Part shown: positions 56,999 through 60,275 of the stretch, piece after piece
Layout: the number at the start of each line of letters is the position of its first letter
Position numbering within the stretch: position 1 is the first letter of the stretch
Source of the DNA: Formosa sp. Hel1_31_208
GTDB lineage: Bacteria; Bacteroidota; Bacteroidia; Flavobacteriales; Flavobacteriaceae
Direction of reading: 5' to 3'
Length of the DNA stretch: 64,000 nucleotides
Assembly (NCBI RefSeq): GCF_900104785.1
Contig: NZ_LT629733.1
Location: forward strand, 2,512,501-2,576,500
The notes under the pieces: model-generated
Seen by the model: only the letters and a program-made list of their open reading frames with translations
Told to the model about the DNA's origin: nothing
Database searches by the model: none
Translations under genes and position numbers: made by a program

Positions 56999-58237
56999 AT
57001 GGCAAAAGTAATTCCATTTAAAGCAGTAAGACCTACTAGAGCCGTTGTTGGCTTAGTTGCTGCACGCCCATATCAGAGTTATACCATTTACGAACGAGAA
57101 TCCCGAATGGACTATAACCCTTATAGTTTTTTGCACATTGTTAATCCTGGATATAAATATGATAAAGTCATTACTGGTGATGAACGCTACAAACTGGTTA
57201 AAAATCGCTATTTAGAATTTAAAGAAGATGGTGTGTTTATTCAAGATGATAAACCATCATATTACGTCTATAAAATTATCAATAGGCACGGACAAGAATT
57301 CAACGGCATAATTGCAGCCACTAGCGCTGAAGATTATGAAAATGATGTCATCAAAAAACATGAAGACACCATCGCTAAAAGAGAACAAACCTTTAAAAAC
57401 TACCTACAAACTGTAGGTTTTAATGCAGAACCTGTGCTTCTTACCTATCCTGATAACGAGGTAATTTCAGGAATTATCAAAGAAGCTCAGAAAGGTCATG
57501 CTGAATTTGAATTTACCATGACCTATAAAGACACGCATTACTTGTGGCGATTAGATGACGATGATGCTATAGCTAGAATACAAAATGAGTTTGAAGATAT
57601 GAAAACGGTTTACATTGCTGATGGCCATCACCGATCGTCCTCTTCGAATTTATTATATCAAGACGAAAAAGCCTCAAATCCAAATCACAACGGTAGTGAG
57701 TCCTATAATTTTTTTATGTCGTATTTAATTCCTGAATCTGATTTAGTCATTCATGAATTCAACCGATTGATCAAGGATTTAAATGGTTTGACAAAGGAAG
57801 AATTTTTAATTCGATTAGATGCTATATACCGCATTGAGAATAGAGGTACAATGCCTTACCATCCTTCAAAACCACATCATTTCAGCATGTATTTAGATGG
57901 TGAGTTTTATTCGTTATATCTACGTAAAGCGAATTACAAGTTCAAAACCGCTTTAGATCAATTAGACGCCCAATTATTATATCAAACCATCTTAAAACCA
58001 ATTCTAGGTATTGAAGATTTAAGAAATGATAACCGTATAGAATATGTGAACGGTAGACATGAGATGATTACTATTAAAAGCAGTGTAGATAGTGGCGAAT
58101 TTGAAGTTGGTTTCGGTATGTGTCCAGCCACAGTAAATCAAATAAAACAAATCGCAGATGAAGGGTTGAAAATGCCTCCAAAGAGCACTTATATCCTTCC
58201 AAAATTAAGAAGCGGAATTACCATTTATGAATTTTAA
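56999..58237 (+). CDS. DUF1015 protein
   Basis: 412 residues; IPFKAVRPTRAVVGLVAARPYQSY, then NPYSFLHIVNPGYKYDKVITGDERY, the conserved YIADGHHRSSSSNLLY (GHHR), FNRLIKDLNGLT and IEYVNGRHE. This is the DUF1015 family; an archaeal member is a serine kinase, but no activity can be assigned here. Its stop is 1 bp before the PLPBP start, suggesting translational coupling with the following gene. Cytoplasmic. Confidence 0.92.
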   Translation: MAKVIPFKAVRPTRAVVGLVAARPYQSYTIYERESRMDYNPYSFLHIVNPGYKYDKVITGDERYKLVKNRYLEFKEDGVFIQDDKPSYYVYKIINRHGQEFNGIIAATSAEDYENDVIKKHEDTIAKREQTFKNYLQTVGFNAEPVLLTYPDNEVISGIIKEAQKGHAEFEFTMTYKDTHYLWRLDDDDAIARIQNEFEDMKTVYIADGHHRSSSSNLLYQDEKASNPNHNGSESYNFFMSYLIPESDLVIHEFNRLIKDLNGLTKEEFLIRLDAIYRIENRGTMPYHPSKPHHFSMYLDGEFYSLYLRKANYKFKTALDQLDAQLLYQTILKPILGIEDLRNDNRIEYVNGRHEMITIKSSVDSGEFEVGFGMCPATVNQIKQIADEGLKMPPKSTYILPKLRSGITIYEF

Positions 58238-58238
58238 A

Positions 58239-58901
58239 ATGAATATTACAGAAAGTTTAAAAAATATAAGCGCCCAACTACCCAGCCATGTCACCTTAGT
58301 TGCTGTTTCAAAAACAAAACCTGTTTCTGATTTGATGGAAGCCTACAATGCCGGACAACGTGTTTTTGGTGAAAATAAAATCCAAGAAATGGTTGATAAA
58401 CATGAGCAAATGCCAAAGGACATACAATGGCATATGATTGGTCATGTGCAACGCAATAAGGTCAAGTATATGGCTGAGTTTATCAGTTTAATACACGGTG
58501 TGGATAGTTTAAAACTTCTAAAAGAAATCAACAAACAGGCCAAGAAGCACGATAGAACTATTAATTGCTTGCTTCAAATTAAAATAGCTGAAGAAGATAG
58601 TAAGTTTGGAATGCATCCAACAGATGCTAAAGAATTATTGAGTTCGGAAGAATTTTCTGAATTAAAAAACGTGAGTATCACCGGTGTAATGGGAATGGCG
58701 ACATTTACAGATGACACCAAACAAATTGAACAAGAATTTAACAAACTGAAAGCTACTTTTGAGGAACTTCGTACCATTGACGACTCACTTCAAACCATAA
58801 GTATGGGAATGAGTGGGGATTATCAATTAGCAATTGACTGTGGAAGCACTATGATTCGGGTAGGAAGTAGTATCTTTGGAAGTCGTAATTATTCAAACTA
58901 A
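58239..58901 (+). CDS. YggS/PLPBP PLP-homeostasis protein
   Basis: 220 residues from ATG 58239; an ATG at 58227 overlapping the previous gene is less likely. VTLVAVSKTKPVSDLMEAYNAG carries the PLP lysine; FGENKIQEMVDKHEQMP, IQWHMIGHVQRNKVKYM, SLIHGVDSLKLLKEINKQ, GVMGMATFTDD and SMGMSGDYQLAIDCGSTMIRVGSSIFG are diagnostic. It controls PLP levels and amino-acid pools. Directly after its TAA stop the same frame continues into the exonuclease gene, separated by 12 bp. Confidence 0.93.
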   Translation: MNITESLKNISAQLPSHVTLVAVSKTKPVSDLMEAYNAGQRVFGENKIQEMVDKHEQMPKDIQWHMIGHVQRNKVKYMAEFISLIHGVDSLKLLKEINKQAKKHDRTINCLLQIKIAEEDSKFGMHPTDAKELLSSEEFSELKNVSITGVMGMATFTDDTKQIEQEFNKLKATFEELRTIDDSLQTISMGMSGDYQLAIDCGSTMIRVGSSIFGSRNYSN

Positions 58902-58913
58902 AACTACAACCCT

Positions 58914-60275
58914 ATTTACGCAATAATTGACATAGAAACCACTGGTGGAAAATACAATGAAGAAGGTGTTACTGAAATCGCTATCTACAAATTTGACGGT
59001 CATAAAGTAGTTGATAAATTCATAAGCCTAGTGAATCCAGAACGAGACATCCAACCCTTTGTGGTTAATCTCACAGGGATTAATAGTAATATGCTTAAAA
59101 GTGCACCCAAATTTTATGAGGTAGCCAAGCGTATTGTTGAAATCACTGAAGACTGCATTATCGTAGCACACAATGCCCAATTTGATTATAGAATACTGAG
59201 GACTGAATTCAAACGTTTAGGCTTCGGATTTAAAAGAAAAACATTGTGCACGGTTGAGCTTTCTAAACAACTCATCCCTGGACAGGCGTCTTATAGTTTA
59301 GGGAAATTAACCCGAGCCCTTGGTATTCCAGTGAGCGATAGACATCGGGCTAATGGCGATGCAATGGCTACTGTTAAATTGTTTAAAATGCTTTTGAGTA
59401 AGGATTTGTCAAAACGTATTATAAAGGACAATATCAAGGTTGAAATTATTAAACGTTTAAATGAAACACATAAAACTATTATAGATGCTTTACCTGCGAT
59501 TACAGGAGTGTATTACATACATGACGAAAATGGTGACATCATATACATAGGAAAGAGTAAAAACATTAAGCACCGTATCAATCAACACTTTACAAATAAC
59601 AGTACAAAATCTAAAAAAATACAACTCATAGCAAAATCAGTGACCTATGAATCTACTGGAAGTGAACTTGTAGCCTTGTTAAAAGAAAGTGAAGAGATTA
59701 AACGCAATAAACCACTTTATAACCGAGCATTGCGAAGAACCACATTCACTCACGGCTTATATAGTTTTAAAGATGACAACGGGTATCTCAATTTACAAAT
59801 TAACAAGACAAACATTACAGAAAAACCCATAACGACGTTTAGTAACATGCAAAGCGCAAAAAGCTTTATGTTCAGAATAGTTGAAACTTATGAACTCTGT
59901 CAAAAACTCACTGGTTTATACCCAACAAAATCGAATTGTTTCAATTACACCATTAAAAGCTGTAATGGTGCGTGCATCAATGAAGAACCTGCCGACGTCT
60001 ATAACAAGCGTGTTCAAGAATTGATAGTAAAAAATAGCTATGATAATAAAAATATGGTGATTATAGACCAAGGAAGAGATATCGATGAAAAAAGTGTCAT
60101 CTATATTGAAAATGGCATCTTCAAGGGCTTAGGTTTCTACGATCTCAACCATCAAATAAATAATATCGAAGTACTGGAATCGATTATTACTCCTATGGAA
60201 AACAATAGAGATACACAGCACATTATTCAGAGTTACTTGAGACGAAACAAACGAGTAAAAACGATTTCTTTATAA
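58914..60275 (+). CDS. DEDDh exonuclease with GIY-YIG domain, starting at ATT
   Basis: 453 residues if it starts at ATT 58914, giving YAIIDIETTGGKYNEEGVTE directly. The DEDDh exonuclease motifs (DIETTG, HNAQFDYRILR, then HRANGDAMAT) occupy about residues 1-170; a GIY-YIG nuclease follows (ITGVYYIHDENGDIIYIGKSKNIKHRI in parts), and a UvrC-like C-domain with CFNYTIKSCNGACINEEP. No ATG or GTG precedes the DIETTG motif: the next GTG at 59031 removes it. Relatives start MYAI-IDIETTGG, so ATT is in the start position. It is likely a DnaQ/UvrC-type DNA repair protein. This is the only gene in the window with such a start. Confidence 0.85.
   Translation: MYAIIDIETTGGKYNEEGVTEIAIYKFDGHKVVDKFISLVNPERDIQPFVVNLTGINSNMLKSAPKFYEVAKRIVEITEDCIIVAHNAQFDYRILRTEFKRLGFGFKRKTLCTVELSKQLIPGQASYSLGKLTRALGIPVSDRHRANGDAMATVKLFKMLLSKDLSKRIIKDNIKVEIIKRLNETHKTIIDALPAITGVYYIHDENGDIIYIGKSKNIKHRINQHFTNNSTKSKKIQLIAKSVTYESTGSELVALLKESEEIKRNKPLYNRALRRTTFTHGLYSFKDDNGYLNLQINKTNITEKPITTFSNMQSAKSFMFRIVETYELCQKLTGLYPTKSNCFNYTIKSCNGACINEEPADVYNKRVQELIVKNSYDNKNMVIIDQGRDIDEKSVIYIENGIFKGLGFYDLNHQINNIEVLESIITPMENNRDTQHIIQSYLRRNKRVKTISL

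Follow-up and report, generated by a model that had tools for sequence, protein, structure and literature searches.

A probable AUU start codon, shared across related genomes and cleared of nearby AUGs, in an exonuclease/GIY-YIG nuclease gene of Formosa sp. Hel1_31_208

How is translation of a nuclease gene begun when its reading frame offers none of the usual start codons before the catalytic motif? The question is raised by a stretch of 64,000 nucleotides (nt) of Formosa sp. Hel1_31_208 (contig NZ_LT629733.1, positions 2,512,501 to 2,576,500; referred to here as the window), in which a gene for a DEDDh exonuclease with a GIY-YIG nuclease domain follows yggS on the plus strand. An earlier note on this DNA had stated that the gene has no ATG, GTG or TTG before its catalytic motif and had proposed ATT as the start codon. 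In this study, we found the letters on which it relied: the yggS stop codon TAA (58899..58901), then AAC TAC AAC CCT, then ATT (58914..58916), 12 nt after the stop, followed by TAC GCA ATA ATT GAC ATA GAA ACC ACT GGT. No ATG, GTG or TTG was present from the yggS stop to the encoded DIETTG motif. The first canonical in-frame codon was GTG (59031..59033), where the open reading frame with an ATG, GTG or TTG start begins; this is residue 40 of the frame, and a start here would remove the first 39 residues including the DxE motif. Comparison with related genomes suggests, with good probability, that ATT 58914 is the real start codon, read as formylmethionine, and that selection keeps the gene on weak starts for low nuclease output.

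Start codons were read in 30 initial loci from the genus and family, 27 new family loci, 80 named loci (the best 80 of 581 relatives) and 30 loci from 80 lower-scoring family genomes, and also in 8 new loci and 200 hand-chosen regions from the family and order. The choice was non-random, and close relatives are over-represented. Before counting, 10 loci without the motif pattern and 29 paralogue-like or divergent class-B rows were dropped, and rows that did not differ in sequence near the start were collapsed (305 to 270 rows; later 4 of 60 were removed). All 23 genomes of the genus, that of our strain included, carried an orthologue, and the aligned codon was ATT in 15 and ATC in 8, with no ATG. 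The 297 distinct orthologue starts comprised ATT (103), TTG (100), ATG (53), ATC (24), GTG (8), ATA (5) and four others, in which ATG or TTG lies one codon earlier. The aligned codon was start-capable (ATT, ATC, ATA, ATG, GTG or TTG) in 293 of the 297; TTA occurred once, directly after TTG, and no CTN was found at this position in the set. ATT, ATC or TTG stood there in 227 orthologues and ATG or GTG in 61. From the preceding in-frame stop to the start position, 116 of the 127 ATT/ATC orthologues had no in-frame ATG, GTG or TTG; the other 11 had an upstream in-frame canonical codon, known in nine of them to lie at -24 and further. When whole-genome loci were counted by genus code, the 162 genera divided into 45 with ATT/ATC as the sole type, 49 with TTG, 44 with ATG, 6 with both ATT/ATC and TTG, and 18 with other codons or mixtures. 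With no usable ATG, GTG or TTG and a codon conserved between species, the gene falls into the class of conserved non-canonical starts. These results support the proposed ATT start, which is also backed by the restriction to start-capable triplets and by the avoidance of an out-of-frame AUG at codon 2 described below.

The same counts bear on the idea that the missing start codon is peculiar to this strain. We found no point in favor of a sequencing error or a pseudogene, whose probability we regard as negligible, since the codon is ATT or ATC in all 23 genus genomes and no internal stop occurs in any genus orthologue (the copy in one fragmentary genome, G012, is split in two pieces). A recent loss of the start, which the earlier note had offered as an alternative, is contradicted by the ATT/ATC codons found in every genome of the genus and in many genera besides. 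A true start further downstream, such as GTG 59031, with the upstream frame left untranslated, would agree with the mechanical gene calls, which give 414 amino acids here and 394-425 in several relatives (P0006, P0022, P0048, P0058 and P0066). However, it would delete the DxE motif, the first downstream canonical codon ranges from residue 19 to residue 60 among ATT/ATC/ATA genes, and in 80 ATT/ATC orthologues conservation is higher over residues 2-39 (mean 0.946) than over residues 40-453 (0.805). We therefore consider a downstream start very improbable.

The conserved N-terminus belongs to a recognizable enzyme. Read from ATT 58914, the gene (58914..60275, plus strand) encodes 453 amino acids, with PF00929 (RNase_T) at residues 4-157 (112.8 bits, cut-off 24, E 3.1e-32) and PF01541 (GIY-YIG) at residues 198-268 (36.3 bits, cut-off 22.6, E 6.8e-9). 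The RNase_T domain with its N-terminal DxE motif identifies a DnaQ-like DEDDh exonuclease, and the GIY-YIG catalytic domain scores over its curated cut-off, so the name given to the gene at first sight was correct. The product aligned with the solved DEDDh exonucleases 8zef and 2p1j from residue 2 onward. Its best NCBIfam match was NF005906 (PRK07883, DEDD exonuclease domain-containing protein; residues 2-365, E 3.8e-77), yet the score of 259.9 bits is under the curated cut-off of 495, and the product is not that equivalog. The gene is widespread: a match at E 1e-60, to the orthologue or a paralogue, was found in 376 of 397 family genomes.

Since yggS ends only 12 nt before the ATT and shares its frame in the window, translation might enter the nuclease frame from yggS by stop-codon readthrough, frameshift or fusion. 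The neighborhood is indeed conserved: in 147 of 148 full-length orthologues yggS was matched on the same strand no more than about 1.2 kb upstream. In the 80 full-length ATT/ATC genes, however, the distance from the yggS stop to the start varied from 5 to 682 nt, and registers 0, 1 and 2 were seen in 28, 22 and 30 genes, respectively. Because the yggS stop lies in all three frames at variable distance, readthrough and frameshift are excluded. Moreover, the codons between the yggS stop and the start differ among members of the genus, and readthrough leaves the start-capable aligned codon in 293 of 297 orthologues unexplained. We give entry from yggS a very low probability, and the readthrough suggested in the earlier note fails. 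The shared frame to which that note had appealed is real in the window and looks like chance in the wider set, in register in 28 of 80 genes and out of register in 52. Ordinary operon coupling between yggS and the nuclease gene is possible where the gap is short.

Codon choice behind the start was compared in the 148 full-length genes, which were used for the synonymous scans and trees in place of all 297. In the 80 ATT/ATC genes synonymous freezing was seen in only three of the 274 columns that could be tested, namely TAC at codon 2 (58917..58919 in the window), GAC at codon 6 and ATA at codon 7, each in 80 of 80 genes. All three are minority codons, with gene-wide shares of 0.31, 0.28 and 0.26. 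TTG genes showed the same freezing tendency at codons 2, 6 and 7, and in the 17 ATG genes none was frozen. At codons 2 and 3, TAT before GCN would create an out-of-frame AUG, as it would in the window, where G follows. Among ATT, ATC and TTG genes the ratio of TAT to TAC at codon 2 was 1:206 when G came next and 13:7 when it did not (P 2.2e-15, which treats rows as independent, as related rows are not), compared with 15:31 in ATG genes with G next. In the sole exception, a weak-start gene with TAT before G (L272), an in-frame ATG lies three codons before the start. This rule was noted after 241 rows, and 56 rows were added afterwards. In these later rows, the ten TAT codons (8 ATT, 1 TTG and 1 ATA genes) were all without a following G, and all 44 G-followed codons were TAC. 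TAT was found at codon 2 in 8 of the 127 ATT/ATC genes. As TAT is allowed before codons that open with a base other than G, codon 2 is free to change when no AUG results.

The loss of AUG was not confined to codon 2. A further AUG at -21..+24 occurred in 1 of 127 ATT/ATC genes and 6 of 100 TTG genes, compared with 21 of 53 ATG genes. Over codons 1-9 of the 80 ATT/ATC genes no out-of-frame ATG was seen, whereas synonymous resampling predicted 54.7 (standard deviation 4.1). Out-of-frame UUG was also depleted (11 seen, 65.8 expected). In independent tree pairs of a weak and an AUG start, which number only five, too few for any feature compared in them to attain significance, TAC changed the expected way in 0.9 and the other way in 0.0. 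Bacteroidetes are AUG-poor near starts, with an AUG/GAU ratio reported at about 0.6 in F. johnsoniae against about 0.9 mid-gene (PMC6847099), and overlapping starts have been described to compete in E. coli (PMC9841429). The clearance of AUG in this gene follows the same principle as start competition, in extreme form. These results indicate that initiation at this site is under selection.

We next consider what surrounds the start on its upstream side. A strong Shine-Dalgarno (SD) motif was present in 2 of 127 ATT/ATC, 5 of 100 TTG and 9 of 53 ATG genes, so the compensating SD of sigR, ccpN and cvfC1 was not found in 125 of the 127 ATT/ATC genes; Bacteroidetes mRNAs are reported to lack an SD (PMC6847099). 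T at position -1 (58913 in the window) was frequent before weak starts, in 86 of 127 ATT/ATC and 80 of 100 TTG genes versus 16 of 53 ATG genes. The yggS ATG starts of the same loci had it in 40 of 145, a count that used the nearest ATG and would overlook a different yggS start where an ATG lies close by. In the five tree pairs, T at -1 agreed with expectation in a mean of 3.6 and ran counter to it in 0.4. A Kozak-like A at -3 was not enriched (39 of 127 ATT/ATC versus 21 of 53 ATG genes), and A at -6 was somewhat enriched (65 of 127 versus 18 of 53). The mean predicted minimum free energy was -14.7 for ATT/ATC and -14.3 for TTG regions versus -20.2 for ATG regions, a difference that may merely reflect base composition. 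The predicted unpaired share at -15..-1 was also higher in weak-start regions (0.646) than in ATG regions (0.523), and RNA structure at the start was rejected as an explanation. Several genera (L042, L047, L082, L085 and L094) have heptamer tandem repeats (CTTTTAA)n directly before the start, and in L042 and L094 a repeat of 7 bases (cagtgag) lies further upstream. (CTTTTAA)n was dismissed as a component of the signal, because at least two copies occurred in just 10 of 91 ATT/ATC and 4 of 81 TTG genes and the repeat is not general.

Taken as a mechanism, these features would fit together as follows. Weak AUU, AUC and UUG starts would have been selected in this part of the Flavobacteriaceae so that little nuclease is made, the initiator tRNA pairing imperfectly with AUU and AUC. 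Because no SD directs the ribosome to the weak codon, AUG would be kept out of the neighborhood, most of all the out-of-frame one that TAT-G forms at codons 2 and 3. A U at -1 can pair with the initiator tRNA, and it may be favored here by lengthening the codon-anticodon duplex. By analogy with known weak starts, the codon most likely limits initiation and thus nuclease dose, and harm done by excess nuclease may be the reason for the low dose. Initiation factor IF3 would be expected to repress translation of the nuclease, as the precedents of sigR, S. aureus and infC suggest. The IF3 gene was present in 19 of 19 genomes searched, and its start region could be parsed in 16 of the 19 loci. The infC gene of our strain (G000:C1:2647144-2647644, L323) itself has no ATG, GTG or TTG between the upstream stop and the conserved motif; it reads TAA GTC ATA GCA ATA CGT, in which ATA (AUA) is the likely start, and in some relatives of the order ATC or CTG stands at the same place.

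Several observations weigh against selection for a weak start. AUG is used by 53 of the 297 orthologues, many of them more distant relatives, and species under genus code g127 show ATG, TTG and ATT; the weak start is thus a lineage property. Leaders often differed as a whole between the sister pairs examined, so part of the switching between starts may be leader replacement rather than point mutation. T at -1 was absent from all 8 GTG starts. Three TTG genes have an out-of-frame AUG at +17..+19, and out-of-frame AUU was enriched over codons 1-9 (30 seen, 10.4 expected). UUG was not avoided at codons 4/5, where ATT at codon 4 was found in 3 of 14 genes with G next and 29 of 103 without, and the gene of the window itself has an out-of-frame UUG at 58927-58929. 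ATA at codon 7 was favored in ATG genes too (31 of 53), and avoidance of AUG does not account for the freezing of GAC6 and ATA7. In the five tree pairs GAC went the expected way in 0.8 and the other way in 1.7.

Two rival explanations draw on these points. In the first, little protein is needed, AUG was lost, and AUU, AUC and UUG drift without selection against AUG. The mixing of AUG and weak starts in some clades and the replacement of whole leaders would be in line with this. To follow the switching, a tree of the 148 full-length proteins was built with FastTree, with the start residue left out and midpoint rooting. The largest clade holding only ATT/ATC and TTG rows had 113 rows (78 ATT/ATC and 35 TTG; support 83) and needed 16 Fitch parsimony changes between ATT/ATC and TTG, with no ATG or GTG; it was selected for lacking ATG and GTG and for being the largest such clade, and support is modest in places. 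Over the full 148-row tree, the starred branches alone required the ATT/ATC label to change 9 times. ATT and TTG are two bases apart, and ATG, one of the two single-step intermediates, was not seen in the clade. In a survey of 36 genome groups, by contrast, 79 changed UUG starts were reported to have become AUG (43), GUG (35) or CUG (1), and AUU was entered once from 61,358 AUG starts and once from 5,080 GUG starts (PMC5622118). The some 16 switches without AUG or GUG, the tendency in that survey and the clearance of nearby AUGs all speak against drift, which we regard as rather unlikely.

In the second rival explanation, codons 2-8 are frozen as an RNA or DNA element over the start, such as a repressor, small RNA or structural site, and the weak start is secondary. 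That only three columns of 274 were frozen, all to minority codons, and that GAC and ATA are left over by AUG avoidance would favor such an element. GAC6 was present in 126 and ATA7 in all of the 127 ATT/ATC genes; in the window GAC ATA GAA, codons 6-8, occupies 58929..58937 and encodes Asp6 and Glu8 of the DxE motif, which aligned with the solved DEDDh exonucleases. Other causes of these two codons were considered. Avoidance of out-of-frame UUG was rejected for ATA7, as the codon 4 test was negative and ATC, which would also avoid UUG, is unused at codon 7. Out-of-frame AUA was never seen over codons 1-9 (58.2 expected), and its avoidance was not adopted as the cause of GAC6, because there is no such avoidance of out-of-frame AUU. 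The +1 frame stops (TAG 143 seen, 62.4 expected) were set aside as a signal, since they separate the start classes poorly: one lay within the first 22 nt in 127 of 127 ATT/ATC, 100 of 100 TTG and 49 of 53 ATG genes. ATA went the expected way in 1.3 and the other way in 1.0 of the five tree pairs. Against an element over the whole segment, TAC gives way to TAT in 13 of the 20 genes whose codon 3 opens with a base other than G, which puts codon 2 outside any fixed motif, and the weak-start regions are those predicted to be less paired. We consider this second explanation unlikely. An element at the RNA level, at codons 6-8, is possible; these codons are near the mRNA entry to the ribosome when the start codon is in the P site.

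With the two rivals weighed, selection on a weak AUU start remains our preferred reading. A wider proposal is that the gene has been under long-term selection against AUG, so that bacteria without SD would tune a nuclease by start-codon strength, with AUU/AUC and UUG replacing each other in dozens of genera, nearby out-of-frame starts that compete being removed in a coordinated way, possibly an RNA element at codons 6-8, and the level of IF3 setting nuclease dose. We put this forward tentatively, at slightly less than an even chance. If it is true, fidelity of initiation would set the dose of a nuclease through IF3. With the natural contrast of AUG, UUG and AUU orthologues and the TAT/TAC rule, both competition between start codons and selection for low initiation can be put to the test.

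The start also has a practical consequence for annotation. Gene calls limited to ATG, GTG and TTG remove the catalytic motif, which is an annotation fault. From a protein search, 21 proteins among the best 120 of 8000 scored were inspected. Among these 21, NCBI/nr records such as P0002, P0004, P0008, P0010 and P0017 write ATT or ATC as M, P0003 begins 13 residues further upstream, and the mechanical calls P0006, P0022, P0030, P0058 and P0067 are shortened past the motif. The N-terminus MYAI(I/L)DIETTG, given in the earlier note for related proteins, is indeed carried by several NCBI-type records, because their annotation already translates this codon as M. Many genomes hold a second exonuclease/GIY-YIG paralogue, about 35-44% identical (L026-L032 and L230-L236), often with an ATG immediately preceding the codon position at which the main gene has ATT. 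Matches in several genera covered only residues 1 to about 270 of the query, in an open frame of about 355-380 amino acids; these short versions retain the exonuclease and GIY-YIG parts, and the C-terminal part is lost or diverged. The upstream neighbor yggS (58227..58901, plus strand; YggS family pyridoxal phosphate-dependent enzyme, TIGR00044, 208.4 bits) may start at ATG 58239 or already at ATG 58227, in which case it overlaps the previous gene, which ends at 58237.

How does this start compare with those already known? No description of this case was found in the open-access literature searched, and few bacterial AUU/AUC starts appear to have been characterized. In E. coli, expression of pcnB is translationally limited by its inefficient AUU start codon, according to the title of Binns and Masters 2002 as cited in PMC9410913. 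Like our gene, pcnB encodes an enzyme acting on nucleic acid; unlike pcnB, our gene has no SD, swaps AUU/AUC and UUG across species and is missing neighboring AUGs. The autoregulation of infC by IF3 from AUU, AUC or AUA (PMC5472188, PMC13009471) resembles our case in the conserved non-canonical start and the expected discrimination by IF3, but our gene encodes a nuclease and therefore does not imply an autoregulatory loop. In Streptomyces, sigR was reported to start with GTC in 32 of 34 species and GTT in two, to over-produce its protein when the start was changed to ATG, GTG or TTG, and to be repressed by IF3 through GTC (PMC5472188). It shares with our gene a conserved rare start; sigR is described with a strong conserved SD, whereas here a strong SD is rare and TTG is a common alternative. 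In S. aureus, ccpN (AUA) and cvfC1 (AUU) have conserved non-canonical starts, and in reporters the output from such starts in poor medium was about 10% of that from AUG, with ccpN reaching up to 30% in rich medium (PMC13009471). Both genes carry an extended SD according to that report, and our gene does not. Conserved non-canonical starts are therefore already known, and what is new in this gene is a start conserved without the help of an SD, the swapping between AUU/AUC and UUG without AUG in a large clade, and the loss of competing AUGs.

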